From NCBI GenBank assembly GCA_963580285.1, contig OY757011.1, forward strand, positions 151,775,092 to 151,839,091: DNA of 64,000 nucleotides, given 5' to 3'. Source of the stretch: Lucinisca nassula. Taxonomy: Eukaryota; Mollusca; Bivalvia; Lucinida; Lucinidae. Position numbers and translations under genes: made by a program. Every line of letters begins with the position of its first letter. Within the stretch, counting starts at the first letter, position 1. Shown here piece after piece: positions 4,540-57,657 of the stretch. The notes under the pieces were generated by a model. That model was not told the origin of the DNA. It saw nothing but the letters and a program-made list of their open reading frames with translations, and did not search any database.

Positions 4540-5050
4540 ACAGCCGCGTGTGTGAAGCCGTTGCTTTAGTCGTGGGGCCATGAGGGGGTATTAGTGTCTA
4601 CCGGAGGTCTCTTGTGGAAGTAACGTATAAATATTGTTACTTTGATACGTTGCCTTAGGTAAAGAGTTATTTGATCGTCTGGTTTTTTGCTGGGCAACCG
4701 TTGTGTTGGCATTTGTTTTTATATGGGATCGGCCCTTCTGACTTGACTGGATGAGGCAGTTCCTGTATTGCAGATGTTGCAGATTGCAGATTCCACCAGC
4801 ATTTAAATACAGCACCTTCTTTGAGCAAATCATGACATCGGCTGCTGACACTGGCAATATGTACTCTCGTTTGACAAGACGCCCATCAACTCGGCTGGAC
4901 AATCTCTTGTTTGACAATACGCCCATCAACTCGGCTGGGAATCATGGGTGGCAATGAGTCCCAAATATCATATTCACAGCTTTAGGCATCGCCTGATTAA
5001 TCAGATAATTAGTGCAGCAATTAAGTCATATCCAGAGCTTATTGATTTAG
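4540..5050. other. unassigned spacer with a 40-bp duplication
   Basis: No recognisable protein. At 4870-4940 a 40-bp unit containing GCCCATCAACTCGGCTGG occurs twice in tandem (at 4881 and 4921). Confidence 0.5.
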
Positions 5051-5074
5051 ATGTTTTGTTTTTTTTTTTTAAAT

Positions 5075-5109
<35 letters not shown>

Positions 5110-5155
5110 AACTAGAAACATTTTTATTTAATAAACATATATATAATTATTATAA

Positions 5156-5198
<43 letters not shown>
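5075..5198. repeat. A tract and AAT microsatellite
   Basis: A nearly pure A tract runs 5075-5108 and an (AAT)n microsatellite 5155-5198. They lie just upstream of the LINE D leader and may mark the tail of another retroelement. Confidence 0.9.
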
Positions 5199-5250
5199 CC
5201 GGCAATTAAAGTATTAATGTACAGCTTAATAAGCATTATAACTGTTGTGG

Positions 5251-5338
5251 GCCGAGTTTGCTATGTGCCGAGTTTGTAGGGGCCGAGTTGGTTATGTGCC
5301 GAGTTGGCTATGTGCCGAGTTGGCTATGTGCCGAGTTG
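5251..5338 (+). promoter_or_regulatory. 16-bp tandem monomers at the 5' end of LINE D
   Basis: Six copies of a 15-16 bp unit (GCCGAGTTGGCTATGT) stand head to tail and end about 40 bp before the first LINE D ATG at 5381. Tandem 5' monomers serve as promoters in some LINEs. Here the promoter role is inferred from position only. Confidence 0.5.
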
Positions 5339-5380
5339 TCCCGATACCAAAAGAAGAACGTGCCGAGAGACTGCAGACAA

Positions 5381-5658
5381 TGGCTCAAAATAACACAACA
5401 CCTAGTTTCCACAGTACACTGTTGTCAAGACCTGATCAGAGTAAATCACCTTTGGGAATGGAAATGGAAAGTCAAATAAGTCCTATTTCATCAATGAGTG
5501 GAATGTCCCATTTTAACTTACAAAATGTTTCGTCCTTCAATTCTGCTGATGACACTGTGGTTCACACAACAGGAGTAGGAGCATATGACCAGACAACAAC
5601 AGTTCAAGATATTGAAAGCCAAGTGACCATAGTAGGTGGTGCTCAGACAAGTTTCTAA
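5381..5658 (+). pseudogene. N-terminal region of the LINE D ORF
   Basis: A 92-codon frame rich in Ser, Thr, Gln and Asn, starting MAQNNTTPSFHS and ending at a TAA at 5656-5658. It has no recognisable fold and is low-complexity, like the linker before a LINE endonuclease. The next frame, carrying the endonuclease start, opens at about 5660. Whether this was a separate ORF1 or the front of ORF2 cannot be decided by eye. Confidence 0.5.
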
Positions 5659-6109
5659 TCACCAAGAGTCTGAATCACCCAATCGTCCTTTATAAATGAT
5701 GTTTTTAATTATGTAAATACTGTTTTAACTGAGAGCAAAAATGATGAACTTTTTAATTGCCAAAACAACGGAACCTTTTTAAAAGTGCTTTACAGTAACT
5801 GTGATTGTTTTACCCAGTCAAAGAAAGGAGAATTGCAAAATTATGTAACATCAGATTGTCCACACATAATAGCTTTGACTGAAATCTTCCCAAAACATTC
5901 AACATTTGAGAATTGTGAAGCATTTTACAGCTTAGAGAACTATGATGCATTTATCCCCAATATTAACGAAAGAAGAGGAATAGTAATTTATATTAAAAGT
6001 TCACTGGCAGCAACCAAAATCTCCTTTCAAAATGACTTCAAGGAACAAGTTTGGTGTAAAATTAATCTGTCTGATAACAACTATGCATTGATAGGTTGCA
6101 TCTATAGAA

Positions 6110-6243
6110 TAAAAATCAAAAATGAGTTCCTTTAAGAGCAATGAAAACAGTCATAAGAAAGAAGATGGGTCATACTACGTAGTTTCGGCTAAAAAGCCTC
6201 ATCAGTGACCCTGTAATGATCCGACAACGAAAGCCAGAGGAAA
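6110..6243 (-). mobile_element. hammerhead-bearing repeat, family A, short copy
   Basis: A 134-bp insertion flanked by a perfect 11-bp duplication CATCTATAGAA (6099-6109 and 6244-6254). Read on the minus strand it matches 29500-29630, including the hammerhead core. This is a partial family A unit in the opposite orientation to LINE D. Confidence 0.9.
6167..6211 (-). ncRNA. type I hammerhead ribozyme, family A
   Basis: On the minus strand: stem I GGGTCA, core CTGATGA, stem II GGCT-tttt-AGCC, core GAAA, palindromic stem III CTACGTAG, then UA at the cleavage site and stem I partner TGACCC. Every core position of a hammerhead is present. Cleavage would fall between 6173 and 6172. Stem III has almost no loop, as in retrozyme and Penelope-associated hammerheads. 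Confidence 0.85.
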
Positions 6244-6540
6244 CATCTATAGAAGCCCTAGTTGCTCACGTGAATCAACACTTCAACTTGTTGAATTATT
6301 ACAACATGTAAGCAATCTAAAACCATCACATGTTCTTATCATGGGGGACTTTAACTTCGAAGAAATAGACTGGAATATTTATGAATCATCAGAAAATGAG
6401 AACCACATCTCAAGTTTATTTATGGAAGGTGTCAAAGATTCATTTTTATACAACATGTAAGAGAACCAACTAGATATAGAGACGGGCAGGCACCATCAAT
6501 TTTAGATCTCATATTTACTAATGAAGAAAACATGGTCGAA

Positions 6541-18742: not shown

Positions 18743-20060
18743 CGAGGACTGTTCAAATATGAATGCAAGTAGAACGTTTCTCATGCACTAATGCGAAAAT
18801 CACCTGGAAATAAATATCACAGCGTAGAAAAACATTTTACCTATACATTGATACCAAACCTGTTAAAATCCGTGCACTTTAGCCATGTATATCGTTCGAT
18901 AAACACTGTCTACTCTTGTATACTAATACAAAACATGGTTGGAAGAAGATCAGAGTACGCCGTTGAAAAAGGTCGTTGTATTCTTGGTATATGGTGCAAA
19001 GACATTTTTGATAAAATATGTTCGGTTTATGGGCATAATGAAATGTCTTTTCTGACAGTTTTTCGTTGGTGTAAGAAATTCAGCTGTGGGCTAGGCTCAA
19101 CAGAAGATGCACCACATGATCGTCGGCCGAAAAGAGCAACATCTGCCAAGATGGTCGCTAGAGTGAAAGAAATAGTTGCTACCGATGCACGATAAACCAC
19201 TAGGCAAATAACTAGTATGGTTGGCATCTCATTAGGAGCAGCTCATACAATTCTGAAACGGGATTTGAAAATGAGAAAGATCTGTGCTAGATGGATTCCC
19301 CATCTGTTGACAGATGAGCAGAAAAAGACACGCGTTCAGTGCGCCAAGAAGTTGCTTAAAAAGTTTCCAAATTACAATGCACGGTATTTCGCTAATGTCG
19401 TCACAGGTGACGAGACATGGGTTCACTTTTTGAGCCAAAACGAAATATTCAGAACAAAATACGGGCAACAAAGTATTGCAAAAGACCATGCATTGCAAAG
19501 CGGACCATGAGCGTCAAGAGGGTAATGTATGCCATATTCTTTTCAAATCAGGGCCCTGCTATTCAGGTTGCTGTGCCTTAAGGCAAATATGTAAATGCGA
19601 AGTTTTACAAGAATAAAGTTCTTCGAAAATTGAAGAAATATTTCAAAGAACGAAGACCCGCAACTGGCTTGGCCAATGTCAGATTGCTACATGACAATGC
19701 GTCATCGCACAATGCGTTCATTGTGCAAGACTGTCTGAAGCAGGAAAAGGTTGTTGAACTCCCTCACCCCCCGTATTCCCCTGACCTTGCCCCGTGTGAC
19801 TTTTTTGTTCCCGTGGCTGAAAGAATACCTTTCTGGTCGAAAATTTGTACAGCGCAAACACATCGGTTCTGCAATATTCCAGTGCCTTCATAGTATACCT
19901 CGAAAAGACTACCAAAATGCATTCAATGATTGGATCAGAAGACTGAAAGTTTGTATATCTGTTAAAGGGGAATACTTTGAGGGGACATAAATTTTTCATC
20001 GAAATCTATCACGGAATCATTTTTATGTACTTAGTTGCATTCATATTTGAACAGTCCTCA
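18743..20060 (+). mobile_element. mariner transposon, full length
   Basis: 1318 bp between TA dinucleotides (18741-18742 and 20061-20062), with ~27-bp inverted ends GAGGACTGTTCAAATATGAA. Length and TA duplication fit Tc1/mariner elements. A second 5' end exists at 17624 because of the tandem duplication. Confidence 0.92.
18935..19990 (+). pseudogene. mariner DD34D transposase, inactivated
   Basis: The likely start is MVGRRSEYAVEKG at 18935. The N-terminal helix-turn-helix pair covers about residues 1-110. The linker carries RWIPHLLTDEQ, the mariner WVPHxL-type motif. The catalytic block DETWVHF (first Asp) is near 19412. The second Asp is in LLHDNASSH (~19690), and the third is the Asp of PYSPDLAPCD, 34 residues later, giving DD34D. 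Lesions: TAA at 19193 (after ATDAR), a frameshift near 19420, TAA at 19579-19581, and a frameshift in the T run near 19803. The C-terminus continues FPWLKEYLSGRKF to YFEGT-stop at 19990. The enzyme cuts and pastes the element at TA sites; this copy cannot encode it. Confidence 0.93.
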
Positions 20061-20062
20061 TA

Positions 20063-20560
20063 TTGGCACCAGGGCTATAATTTGAACACTCTTGGTATAG
20101 GTCCATTAGATGAAGCTTCATACCAAATATCAAAGACCTGGGCCTTCTGGTTGCAGAGAAGAAGACTTTTAAAGGTATTCCCTCTCTAAGTCTATGTAAA
20201 ACCAGTTGGCCCTGTGGCAGGGTCGTTTTTGGCCCCAGGGCTATAATTTGAACAATATAGGTAGAGTTCCACTAGATGAAGCTTCATATCAATTATCAAA
20301 GACCTGGGCCTTCTGGTTTCAGAGAAGAAGATTTTTAAAGATTTTCCCTAAGGCTATATGTATATATAAGCCTATGTAAAACGAGTGGGTCCCGACGCGG
20401 GGGCGTTTTTGGCCTCAGGGCTTTAATTTGAACAAACTTGGAAGAGGTTCACTAGATGAAGCTTCATACCAAATATCAAAGACCTGGGCCTTCTGGTTTC
20501 AGACAAGAATATTTTTATATGTTTTCCCTATACAAGCCTATGTAAAACCAGTGGGGCCCT
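20063..20560 (+). repeat. three ~180-bp tandem units
   Basis: Three units share GGGCTATAATTTGAACA, GATGAAGCTTCATACCAA, ATCAAAGACCTGGGCCTTCT and GCCTATGTAAAACCAGTGGG. The mariner is inserted at the left edge of the array. Confidence 0.85.
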
Positions 20561-24574: not shown

Positions 24575-24865
24575 AAAGCCTACACAGTAATCATGTAATT
24601 ACGGTAGGGGTCTTTAACCTGCACACGAGATGACTCTTCCTGCACAAGGGGCCGGCCTTTAGTTAACGTCCCGATAAGAAAGACGGCGCACTTTTTGGCA
24701 TTCATCCCTGCAAATGTTGCCAATGGAGCGTGTTCGGACACCGAAATAATCATCGCCTCCGGGAATCGAACCGGGGCCTCTAGCATCAGAGGCAAGTGCA
24801 CTAACCACTGAGCTATCCTCATGGGATACTAAAGACCCAGCAGGCCCATGACGTAATTGTGACGC
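24575..24865 (-). mobile_element. SINE3, tRNA-derived
   Basis: On the minus strand the head GATAGCTCAGTGGTTAGTGC (box A) and GGTTCGATTCCC (box B) form a tRNA-like pol III promoter. The body GAACACGCTCCATTGGCA and the tail match the plus-strand copy at 25239-25592. Confidence 0.9.
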
Positions 24866-25238: not shown

Positions 25239-25592
25239 AAGCGTGATAGCTCAGTGGTTAGTGCACTTGCCCCTGATGCTAGAGGTCCCGGGTTCGATCC
25301 CCGGCAGCGGTGATAAAATTTCGGTATCCGAACACGCTCCATTGGCATCATTTGCAGGGATGAATGCCATAAAGTGTACCGTCCTTCGGATAGGGACGTT
25401 AACTGGAGTCCCCCTCCTGTGCAGGGAGAACCATCCACGGTGCAGGTTAAAGAATCCTACTGTAATTACAATATTACTGTGTAGGCTTCCATACTGCGTA
25501 ACTGGAGTGTATGTAATATAATATAAAGCATCTCTGTCCCCTCCTGGGGTTAAGACGAAACCGAAAGAAAGGAAGGAAGAAAGAAAAAAAGA
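25239..25592 (+). mobile_element. SINE3, tRNA-derived, full length
   Basis: The head GTGATAGCTCAGTGGTTAGT (box A) and GGGTTCGATCCCCGGCAGC (box B) resembles a tRNA gene with an 18-nt anticodon region. The body holds GAACACGCTCCATTGGCATC and the tail ends in GAAAGAAAGGAAGG-type purines. It is inserted into LINE C between TTACAAGATGAA and GAATAGCCTAGC. Confidence 0.92.
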
Positions 25593-28690: not shown

Positions 28691-28790
28691 TTTTCGTTTA
28701 TACTGTCTCACTTTTATTTCTTTTACATTGCCTTGTACGACGCCTCTGCACACACACCTGCATGGTAGTCCTCTTTACGGGGTTGCTGCA

Positions 28791-28941
<151 letters not shown>

Positions 28942-29231
28942 CAGGCAAGGTATCCAACCCCTTAATAAAAGAGGAGGGAACGGGGTTGCTGAATCTGACA
29001 CTTAAAGGGCAGAGGAATTAGTTGGTCAATTCAATGATGCGTTTAATAAAACTGAGTTCAACGAGGTTCCATTGACTGGAAGATCGGCCCCTTTCATGGA
29101 AAATAGTGTTGTATCCTCGGCGGGAGTGATCGAGTTACATAAAGGCTTGAACCCGTCTAAAGCTTTAGGACCTGATGAGCTTTATCCTTTGAGTCCTGAA
29201 GGAACTAGCAAATGAGCTGCGTCCAGGTTTT

Positions 29232-29639
29232 AGGAACTCATTTTTGAATTTTATTTGCCTTCACTGCAGCTGGTGTTGTTCCGTGTGGCGGCCGTAAAAC
29301 GTCTCCCCGTACATCAACCATAGTGCAGTTTATATTTTACTTTTGGTCCTTTGAGATCAGCGTGAATATTCTGAGAAATCAGAAATAAATTATTGGTTTA
29401 GACTCATATTCTAGACCGGTTTTTAATTATTTGGACCCCATTTTGATTTATATCAGTCTTTGAATCGACTGCCTGTTTGAAATTCGCAAATTTGCAGTAT
29501 GTTTCCTCTGGCTTTCGTTGCCGGATCATTACAGGGTCACTGATGAGGCTTTATTAGCCGAAACTACGTAGTATGACCCATCTTCTTTCTTATGAATGTT
29601 TTCATTGCTCTTAAAGGAACTCATTTTTGAATTTTATTT
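29232..29639 (+). mobile_element. hammerhead-bearing repeat, family A, 1.07-unit copy
   Basis: The 25-bp word starting AGGAACTCATTTTTGAA occurs at both ends (29232-29256 and 29615-29639), so the insertion is one 383-bp unit plus a terminal redundancy. The flanks are LINE B codons (ELRP before, HLFQQSLDTGEIP after), so the repeated word belongs to the element and not the target. It carries a complete hammerhead. Confidence 0.9.
29534..29579 (+). ncRNA. type I hammerhead ribozyme, family A
   Basis: Stem I GGGTCA (29534-29539), CTGATGA (29540-29546), stem II GGCT-ttatt-AGCC (29547-29559), GAAA (29560-29563), palindromic stem III CTACGTAG (29564-29571), UA with predicted cleavage after 29573, and stem I partner TGACCC (29574-29579). 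It differs from the 6167-6211 copy only in the stem II loop, so the paired and core positions are conserved between two independent insertions. Confidence 0.88.
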
Positions 29640-30501
29640 ACTCATCTTTTCCAACAATCTCTCGATACGGGTGAAATCCCCAAAGAATGGCGCCTAGCAA
29701 ACATCTGCCCACTTTTCAAAAAAGGAGACAGGGCTCTTGCTCGTACTTATCGCCCGGTGTCACTGACCTATGTTCTATGTAAATTGCTTGAACACATAGT
29801 CTGCTCGAACATCATGGCCCACTTGGATGAACATAAACTTGAGTCAGACAGAAAACATGTATTTAGAAAAAGGCATACATGTAGTTGCGAAATTCAGCTG
29901 AGCACGGATATTAATGATTGGGCAAAAATCTTGGAAAAAGTTGGTCAGGTGGACACATTTATTCTGGACTACGAGAAGTCTTTTGACACCCCACCTCATG
30001 AACTACTTAAATCCAAATTATTTGGTTATGGAATGTGGGGGAAGGGGGGGGGGGGGGCTCCCAAATGGCTAGATTCCTCCCTTTGTTACAGAAAACAGCG
30101 TGTTGTTGTTAATGGTGAATCTAATGAATGAGATTTCAGCCCTTTAAATGAAATGTTATGCAGATAACAAGGAAGAGAACAAATAAAATTGAGGCTTCAT
30201 ACACCTTAGAGGGAACGGTCCTCGAAAATGTGAATGCCATTAAACATCTTGGTGTGCCAATCAAACACGATTTGAGATGGAATACACACATGAGCAACAT
30301 ACAAAGGCGAATATATCAATTGGGTTCCTGGGTAGAAATCTTCATCAGTGTCCTCAGGATGTGAAGGAGACAGCATATAAGGGACTTGCCCGCCCAATAT
30401 TTGAATATGGCAGTTGCTTCTGGGACCAAAGTGGAGTAGTCCTTAATGAAGACATAGAAAAAGTTCAGAATAGAACTGCAAGATTTGTGACAAGCAAAAA
30501 C

Positions 30502-31279: not shown

Positions 31280-31965
31280 CTGATTCTCATTCGCTGGGGG
31301 AACAAGGCAATCCGTTGGTATGCTGGTAGCACCCTTTAAACCTTTTTATTAAAGTATTAGCCTACTGTCTTTTATCATTTTCTTCAGAGACTCCCATCTT
31401 AATTTTCCTAGTATTCCAGTAATGCTCTAATCTAGCAGCTCTATACTGAACATTTTCAATTTCTTCATTAAGGACGACTCCGGGCCGCTGGGGTCCCAGA
31501 TACTGCCATATTCAAAGATTGGGCAAACAAGATCTTTATATGTTGTCTCTTTTACACAGAACACAAGTCAGAGACACGGGCGATAATTACGGGCAAGAGC
31601 CCTATCTCCTTTTTAAGAGTGGGCAAATGTTCGCTAGTAGACATTCTTTGAGGATTTCACTCGTATCAAGAGATTGTTGAAACAGGTTTCCAAAAACTGG
31701 ACCTAACTCTTTTACTATAGTTCCTTCAGGACTCTAGGATGTAGCTCATCGGGTCCTAAAGCTTAAGTGGGGTTTAAGCCTTTAAGTGACTTGATCACAC
31801 CTGCCGATTGCACAACAATATTATCCATGAATGGGGCCGATCTTCTAGTCAATGGAACCTCCGTGAACCCAGTTTTATTTAAAGGCATCATTGAATTGGC
31901 CAACTGGTTCCTCTGCCCTTTCGGAGTCTGATTCAGCAATCCCGGCCGTCCCCTCCTATTTTATT
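31280..31965 (-). pseudogene. LINE B, inverted second copy with RT deleted
   Basis: The minus strand carries the same blocks as 28190-31215, from the RAEEPVGQFNDAF-like linker (31900) through GPDELHPRV-like words and the block 1 region (31600). It then jumps to the C-terminal DLVCPIFEYG and GILGKLRWESLKK words (31500-31390). It lies tail to tail with the plus-strand copy and is more damaged. Confidence 0.75.
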
Positions 31966-57444: not shown

Positions 57445-57657
57445 TTAACCTTTAACCTGCTGAATATTCATTTTAGCCACACCCATTTCTGACTTTGAAC
57501 CAATCAGATTACTTGATGTAATTTGTTCCTACAAATTCTTAAACTGAATGTCAAACAGTGTAGATCCTGATCAGATGGCTTCTTCAGAAGCCATCTGATC
57601 TGGATCTACACTGTTTGCAAAGATAGGGCTTGTCGCCTACAGCAGGGTAAAGGTTAA
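57445..57657 (-). mobile_element. TTAA MITE, family M1, complete
   Basis: TTAA at both ends; ends CCTTTAACCTGCTG / CAGCAGGGTAAAGG; central hairpin AGATGGCTTC-TTCAGAAGCCATCT. 57658-57959 is unassigned intron. Confidence 0.9.

Follow-up and report, generated by a model that had tools for sequence, protein, structure and literature searches.

A hammerhead retrozyme family in the clam Lucinisca nassula with a near-constant 3′ insertion end and a conserved domain beside it

The repeat at 29232..29639 of the window, the stretch of 64,000 nucleotides of contig OY757011.1 analysed here, belongs to a real, abundant and probably recently active family in the genome of Lucinisca nassula. With a probability of roughly 0.7, it is a non-autonomous non-LTR retrozyme that would move through a circular RNA, copied from a fixed internal start by an enzyme of the Penelope-like kind. 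Elements of this kind are known; added here is the anatomy of the insertions, with a fixed 3′ end, a target preference and a domain shared between families. The retrozyme would be transcribed, and its RNA would cut itself at the hammerhead and close to a circle of about 383 nt. Reverse transcription would begin at a fixed internal site, at a target starting with TT(T) and usually continuing with A or G, and would proceed upstream through anything from part of a lap to several laps. The place where copying stops would vary, the conserved domain being the most frequent one and the ribozyme perhaps another. The domain, lying 3′ of the start, would be the docking place of the Penelope-like enzyme.

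The window copy, its ribozyme and its abundance

The window holds two copies, the longer of which splits a LINE:
29232..29639, plus strand: retrozyme insertion, 1.07 units of the 383-bp unit, G+C 38% (sequence, self-BLAST, genome-wide copies)
29232..29256, plus strand: left 25-bp terminal redundancy, unit phases 1-25 (self-BLAST)
29615..29639, plus strand: right 25-bp redundancy, its end being the fixed 3′ junction, ...TTTTA (self-BLAST)
29000..29231, plus strand: left flank, LINE fragment split by the insertion (paralogue at 31551-31921, minus strand, 83%)
29640..30131, plus strand: right flank, remainder of the same LINE, reverse-transcriptase region (Pfam RVT_1)
6108..6246, minus strand: second copy, 140 bp, 5′-truncated, ribozyme core intact (self-BLAST, 97% identity)

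A unit of about 383 bp with a 25-bp terminal redundancy had been proposed from the letters, and self-BLAST confirmed it: the 25-mers at 29232-29256 and 29615-29639 match exactly at a distance of 383 bp, and the copy of 408 bp is one unit plus the 25-bp repeat at its ends. The TTT that follows ...TTTTA of the right redundancy may belong to the element or to the target. The unit has a G+C content of 38.1% and contains no stop-to-stop frame of 150 aa or more, the frame at 29631-30131 belonging to the flanking LINE outside the unit; no LTR beyond the redundancy was seen in the self-BLAST of the window. The interrupted LINE, which we take to be CR1-like, stays in frame across the insertion site once its flanks are joined (judged by eye), and its RVT_1 match in the right flank (E 1.4e-05, 25.3 bits) lies under the cut-off of 29.6. 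The second copy sits between direct repeats CTATAG (up to TTCTATAGATG).

The surroundings contain further repeats. A (GATA)n microsatellite of ~150 bp lies directly upstream of the interrupted LINE (28790-28941). A near-perfect short hairpin element around GATCAGATGGCTTC...GAAGCCATCTGATC occurs at 57546-57622 and in locus L070 (about 230-285) and gives weak Rfam miRNA matches. Two tRNA-like Rfam matches, at 25247-25304 (plus strand, 30.3 bits) and 24759-24815 (minus strand, 28.8 bits; cut-off 29), are perhaps tRNA-derived SINEs. A tandem repeat of ~166 bp is found in the flanks of L019, in L044-L047 and at 20050-20560 of the window; one retrozyme copy is inserted within it.

All elements of the complete hammerhead core claimed by the original prediction are present, in order, at 29534-29579, and the cleavage expected after 29573 is, by sequence, correctly placed:
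29534..29579, plus strand: type-I hammerhead, predicted cut between 29573 and 29574, GUA triplet (sequence; sub-threshold Rfam)
29534-29539, plus strand: segment GGGTCA (sequence)
29540-29546, plus strand: core CTGATGA (sequence)
29547-29559, plus strand: segment GGCTTTATTAGCC (sequence)
29560-29563, plus strand: core GAAA (sequence)
29564-29571, plus strand: segment CTACGTAG (sequence)
29572-29573, plus strand: TA, followed by the predicted cut (sequence)
29574-29579, plus strand: segment TGACCC (sequence)
29563..29572, plus strand: palindromic stem III segment ACTACGTAGT (sequence; counterpart in family B, ACTAGCTAGT)

Stem I comprises 6 bp and stem II about four, and the short stem III lies within a perfect 10-nt palindrome (ACUACGUAGU), which makes a dimeric ribozyme as plausible as a monomer; the segment could serve either form. 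The genome-wide copies support both the type-I assignment with a minimal stem III and the retrozyme-like nature of the repeat.

Rfam hammerhead models, suggested as a check, gave sub-threshold matches only at both window copies: RF00008 at 21.4 bits (cut-off 48.5) and RAGATH-1 at 19.2 bits (cut-off 56.3) for the copy at 29232-29639, and RF00008 at 31.9 bits for the copy at 6108-6246. With the RF00008 alignment also in the wrong (type III) register, Rfam was set aside as the deciding test. The type I model RF00163 is absent among the matches listed for the window, which leave out lower-scoring ones of the same clan, or for the copy; a genome search with it gave no match among the best 73 of 434,402 candidates scored, and control genomes were equally silent. 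One sub-threshold RF00008 match came from five loci with family A (the window family), B, D or Penelope-type sequence. Local folding was likewise rejected as evidence: the 86-nt stretch around the ribozyme has a z of 0.31, with 121 of 200 shuffles as good. In the minimum-energy folds of this stretch and of the circle, an alternative pairing replaces the active stem III; over the 46-nt ribozyme, the active monomer fold has -11.7 kcal/mol and the optimal fold -12.5 kcal/mol. The linear unit folds with a z of -1.99 against shuffles, and the circular unit at -94.1 kcal/mol with a z of about -2.8 against 60 shuffles. As Rfam matches are sub-threshold and the local fold is unremarkable, it is the invariant core, together with the stems and the copy numbers, that carries the identification.

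These numbers are high. An exact 40-nt hammerhead word occurs 16,301 times in the genome (2.93 Gb; 696 contigs of up to 225 Mb) and its reversed control not once, which is beyond chance. At least 94 matches to the copy were obtained with 40 of 1,786 candidates scored, many of them spaced by 383 bp; tandem copies with a unit periodicity near 383 bp, whose absence was to count against the original prediction, are thus common. Insertions range from 59 bp to 3.8 units, those picked by their ribozyme from 0.15 to 3.8 units. The majority sequence at unselected loci differs from the window copy at 7 positions, and a 35-nt word at phases 171-205 with the window allele 186C has 107 exact genome matches, which by sequence places the window copy in a small subfamily; with so few matches and a minority allele inside it, this 35-mer was dropped as a genome-wide continuation control. 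By its ORFs, contig 696 (17,101 bp) is the mitochondrial genome; its cytochrome b shares 80% identity with that of Loripes, 79% with Pillucina, 77% with Lucinella and 68% with Pegophysema, all lucinid clams, versus about 59-63% for other named molluscs among the matches listed, which makes a lucinid host probable; two nameless proteins are nearer, at 92% and 83%.

Three samples were drawn. Sample A consists of 34 loci, the best matches to the 408-bp query, plus the window copy, and is biased toward long copies and the window subfamily. Sample B comprises the first 20 ribozyme sites on contig 1, length and 3′ end being no criteria. Sample C, 19 loci selected by eye, has the exact 3′-end word but neither its 35-nt continuation nor an exact ribozyme in the vicinity; most sites within tandem clusters were skipped, and having been chosen by its 3′ end, the sample serves for 5′ ends only. 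The strict core pattern is found in 68 of the 77 units of sample A and the window. Variant cells number 16/1,994 in the core and stem I, 9/760 in stem III, 32/1,038 in stem II, where one 14-nt deletion weighs heavily, and 320/19,038 in the rest; the units are related, hence these counts are descriptive.

Ordinary satellite DNA, arising by unequal exchange and carrying a chance or relict ribozyme, would share the 383-bp tandem copies and one segmentally duplicated cluster. Most of the sampled copies, however, are single or short insertions at dispersed places, with a constant 3′ end and differing flanks, and empty paralogous sites exist; the probability of this explanation is close to nil. The cluster itself lies on contig C17 (1.39-1.53 Mb), where one partial-tandem insertion recurs in seven nearly identical copies within 0.15 Mb. 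Flanks agree in three of them (L010, L011 and L042), and the cluster is probably a segmental duplication.

Insertion ends, target sites and units within insertions

Nearly all sampled insertions of the family end at one place in the unit. The 3′ end lies at phase 21-30 in 19 of the 20 ribozyme-picked loci of sample B, and at phase 20-30 in 56 of 58 insertions when sample A, sample B and the 6-kb copy are pooled; the fixed site is 63-66 nt downstream of the predicted cleavage site. The exceptions are L055 (phase 44) and L036 (phase 35), the latter having a target similar to the bases that come next in the unit. Rows of the pool were anchored on a TTTTTA-type word; those dropped include L067, which ends at phase 26 without that word, and in the row of L040 (5′ phase 90) the anchor was set a few bases beyond its proper place. 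Since nearly every sampled insertion ends at this internal site, reverse transcription would start there. After the anchor, T is found at +1 in 52, at +2 in 55 and at +3 in 43 of the 58 rows, and A or G at +4 in 43. Locally, 40 of 77 exact 3′-end words are followed by an exact match to the next 12 nt, compared with 24/32, 72/86 and 51/55 at three other places in the unit taken as controls. Genome-wide, the 23-nt word of the 3′ end has 18,977 exact copies, and the 35-nt word that prolongs it into a further unit has 7,064 (about 37%). Four multi-unit insertions differ from the majority at position 23, always in the terminal piece, as if the target, or slippage when copying began, had supplied its letters.

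A fixed 3′ end, variable 5′ ends and short duplications are also seen in LINE-driven copies. The insertions match this pattern, and domains of reverse-transcriptase or RNase H type are encoded in five of ten long window ORFs tested, two of them under the Pfam cut-off. Accordingly, a SINE-like origin deserves attention, though it is unlikely: linear transcripts ending near TTTTTATT would be copied from their 3′ end by a LINE enzyme, the hammerhead would merely trim, and tandems would derive from transcribed arrays. Against it, no short-unit repeat tails are seen at the printed 3′ ends, and the continuation of 7,064 of the 18,977 3′-end words into a further unit means that the end is not obligatory.

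Empty sites, which exist as paralogues through dispersed repeats, clarify the target. Two sites of one dispersed repeat were each hit twice: L015 and L033 occupy the first, their 5′ ends lying at 86 and about 173, and L020 and L025 the second, with 5′ ends at 343 and 150. The 5′ end of L033 adjoins a target that resembles the unit, and other 5′ ends may likewise be a few bases off. The right flank of L020 starts with TTAGATC in the empty site, and the TT is therefore target there; on the left side, 11-15 bp of target are deleted, the value depending on the paralogue. Best-match target duplications average 3.67 bp versus 3.21 bp for a null of mismatched pairs, a value reached in 1 of 5,000 permutations; individual cases measure 7 bp in L031 and 6 bp or more in the window copy at 6108. 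Target duplications are thus short and only slightly over the null, and microhomology can explain part of them. The length of 408 bp had been taken as the readout of copying round a circle; the circle is supported, and the length results from a 5′ end that happens to fall at phase 1, 5′ ends being variable and the 3′ end fixed.

The 5′ ends are scattered over the unit, with two hot spots. Without sample C, 11 of 58 fall at phases 79-99 (3.2 expected, 0 of 5,000 simulations); a weaker excess is seen at phases 310-330, with 8 of 58 (3.2 expected, 61 of 5,000 simulations). With sample C, the counts are 14 of 77 (4.2 expected) and 13 of 77, the latter inflated by the selection of that sample against an exact ribozyme. 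The first hot spot falls within the conserved domain, the second within the part of the ribozyme around stem II. Folded or protein-bound RNA may halt the enzyme there; the SINE-like alternative can read phases 79-99 as a possible transcription start. Copies made from linear monomers cut at the hammerhead, for which a start at phase 343 is predicted, were also considered and rejected, since 2 of 77 insertions start at 341-344. Sample B was picked for its ribozyme and sample A for full length in this comparison; sample C is fairer, and there the count is 0 of 19.

Units within one insertion resemble one another. Among 34 blocks of at least 460 bp, 30 insertions were used, after two C17 duplicates and one of two neighbours in both L030 and L017 had been dropped. 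A minor allele in a unit pair is carried by both units 46 times and by one only 31 times; the shuffled mean for both units is 12.9 and the maximum 22 (500 shuffles). Counted per insertion and site, 26 of 48 cases are uniform and 22 mixed. Ten of the mixed cases concern phases 15 and 23, in the stretch adjoining the 3′ end, and six come from a single chimaera (L026:1495-2114, minus strand), in which each of the two units has the diagnostic alleles of a different subfamily, likely by a template switch or in two events. Such sharing of variants fits laps round a monomer circle and, together with the genome-wide copies, favours the reverse transcription round a circle that had been suggested; alternatively, it could reflect transcription of an already homogeneous tandem array, itself born that way.

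Related families and the domain next to the junction

Three further families, B to D, were found beside the window family A. Family B has a unit of 261 bp, a cleavage triplet GTC and an end ...ACATATT(T), the distance from cut to 3′ end being 87 nt as measured by eye. Families A-D align mainly in the hammerhead and in a block of ~108 nt that starts at the 3′ junction:
29251..29362 of the window, plus strand: conserved structured domain common to the four families, directly 3′ of the putative start of reverse transcription (alignment, predicted structure)
L029:3137-3602, L060:980-1247, L016:491-755 and L067:1684-1881, minus strand, and L037:2017-2214, plus strand: copies of family B (fetched loci)
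L050:783-970, minus strand: family C, single locus, carries the domain
L046:about 5000-5480, minus strand: family D, single locus, carries the domain

Family B may be abundant; a sixth locus of it is L084. There (L084:373-501, plus strand), a copy of family A abuts the 3′ end of family B at ...GAACATA/TTTATTAG, a junction that may be either a nested insertion or a template switch between families.

The alignment of the domain contains ten sequences, five of family A, three of B and one each of C and D, nine of which are distinct. Its predicted structure has 21 pairs, with 95.2% of cells paired versus 36-56% when slid by 1-3 columns. Changes on both sides of a pair affect 7 cells versus 2.9 in shuffles, a number reached in 0 of 500. 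Two other measures are ordinary: 3 pairs with both-side changes are reached by 177 of 500 shuffles and 9 further pair types by 113 of 500, this covariation resulting from few independent events. In the best pair, families A and C have G-C, family B has A-U and family D has G-U; another pair is U-A, with G-C in B. Within sample B, 17 of 1,092 cells vary at phases 41-120 versus 149 of 4,000 at phases 121-300, and at phases 21-40, also in the domain block, 10 of 334. A promoter would account for the conservation, not for the pairing. Nothing relevant to a link with mollusc SINE domains appears in the accessible part of PMC11121367.

The position of the domain bears on the enzyme. LINE-type recognition of 3′ ends predicts conservation upstream of the end. 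Families A and B differ directly upstream of it and are conserved downstream, the reverse of what the SINE-like alternative predicts.

Candidate helpers, known relatives and meaning

An enzyme of the Penelope-like kind is somewhat the likeliest helper, by analogy, a LINE being its main rival. According to the available text of PMC11167929, the enzyme of the Anolis Poseidon element starts 111-118 nt into the ORF, 85-92 nt past the hammerhead cut, and prefers 5′-ATT-3′ DNA; this internal start downstream of a hammerhead is why a Penelope-type helper is preferred. A similar start is deduced for the clam from its constant 3′ ends, and the 87 nt estimated by eye for family B compare with the 85-92 nt of Anolis (PMC11167929). 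Both systems combine a fixed internal start tens of nucleotides past the cut with an AT-rich target, containing ATT in Anolis, where RNA 3′ of the start is needed. Unlike the clam unit, Poseidon is autonomous and encodes a reverse transcriptase and a GIY-YIG endonuclease, and it has two adjacent start sites non-homologous to the target; its hammerhead cleavage is dispensable in vitro (PMC11167929). The word ‘retrozyme’ does not occur in the text available from that source. Both the dispensable cleavage and the difference in homology speak against the Penelope-type reading, the TT(T) of the clam target matching the template.

Penelope-type elements are present in the clam genome. Matches to the GIY-YIG domain number at least 138, with 150 of 746 candidates scored, and some possibly belong to host genes. 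Many frames are open over 763-820 aa, some in tandem at 3.8-4.0 kb, and L068 and L069 show a further frame ahead of the long one, 431 and 492 aa in length, respectively. Examples are:
C6:63493014 and C6:63496822: tandem Penelope-type elements with long open frames
C5:145336487 and C5:145340514: likewise, among others

The 383-bp unit itself contains no ORF of telomerase-like reverse transcriptase or GIY-YIG type. Units A and B have no match beyond 15-22 nt in nine genome regions beside Penelope-type ORFs, at estimated positions, of which at least three (L071, L075 and L076) cover mainly ORF1-ORF2 without the 5′ repeat. This lack of a helper tied to the unit by sequence counts against the Penelope-type reading, as a weak test. 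It also bears on the improbable case that the repeat is a solo pseudo-LTR derived from a Penelope-like element and no independent retrozyme family. Such elements carry tandem pseudo-LTRs (available part of PMC3846280), that of Anolis has a hammerhead (PMC11167929), tandem GIY-YIG ORFs exist in the clam genome and one of the nine regions (L073) has a minimal hammerhead motif, detected by eye. Yet the nine regions bear no similarity to the units, at least three being short of the 5′ repeat, and the clam hammerhead has a stem I of 6 bp and a stem II besides its short stem III.

A viroid-like RNA that replicates from RNA to RNA and is occasionally reverse transcribed into the genome is more improbable still. 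It would agree with the small circle, the ribozyme, the compact predicted circular fold and the cloned mussel retrozyme sequences without exact database match (PMC7229834, in the part available), but not with more than 16,000 genomic copies and genomic subfamilies. Further, a core-word scan of the opposite strand detected no hammerhead core at either window copy, other ribozymes being covered by Rfam only.

Newt satellite 2 is another comparable hammerhead repeat, stemming from a vertebrate and differing in sequence from the clam unit. Its repeats of about 330 bp, with a short stem III able to act as a dimer, recall the clam element (accessible part of PMC7229834). Closest to the retrozyme reading are the non-LTR retrozymes of animals described in 2020 from Acropora, Mytilus and axolotl, which, in the text available, share a type-I hammerhead, a unit of a few hundred bp (about 350-390 bp in Mytilus), low G+C, dispersed short tandems, no LTR seen and no long ORF (PMC7229834). 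The clam unit has an intact type-I core, 383 bp within the range of 150-450 bp, tandem and partial tandem copies, a G+C below 50% and no coding capacity; it differs in host and sequence family. Duplications, when present, exceed 4 bp in metazoan retrozymes and are shorter on average in the clam, with the single cases of up to 7 bp given above. The constant 3′ junction, the TT(T)R target and the shared structured domain are not described in the available portion of PMC7229834. Plant LTR retrozymes also have a hammerhead and a circular RNA intermediate, which is putative in the clam, but they have type III hammerheads, 600-800 nt, LTRs and 4-bp duplications (same source, as far as available); neither LTRs nor a type-III hammerhead are found in the clam unit.

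The suggestion that the family may be undescribed holds for the family, absent from the literature searched, and not for its kind, known in animals with mussel units of 350-390 bp (PMC7229834, in part). Within the limited coverage of that literature, no title or abstract mentions the window family or a fixed start site in retrozymes. A review of 2020 described metazoan retrozymes as lacking a conserved motif that would hint at a mobilising autonomous element (PMC7761336, available text); the fixed 3′ junction of the clam insertions, their preferred target and the domain conserved by the start are motifs of the kind called missing there. It is tempting to propose, tentatively and with rather less than an even chance, that animal retrozymes are satellites of Penelope-like enzymes, with a dedicated docking RNA domain directly 3′ of an internal start site. 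One priming on a closed circle would yield multi-lap cDNA at the target, the ribozyme would make the circle, and the docked domain, perhaps with the folded ribozyme, would impose the stops. The footprints of the insertions suggest a specific and testable mechanism for the jumping of retrozymes, and with its >16,000 exact ribozyme copies the clam would be a rich system for natural circular RNA.
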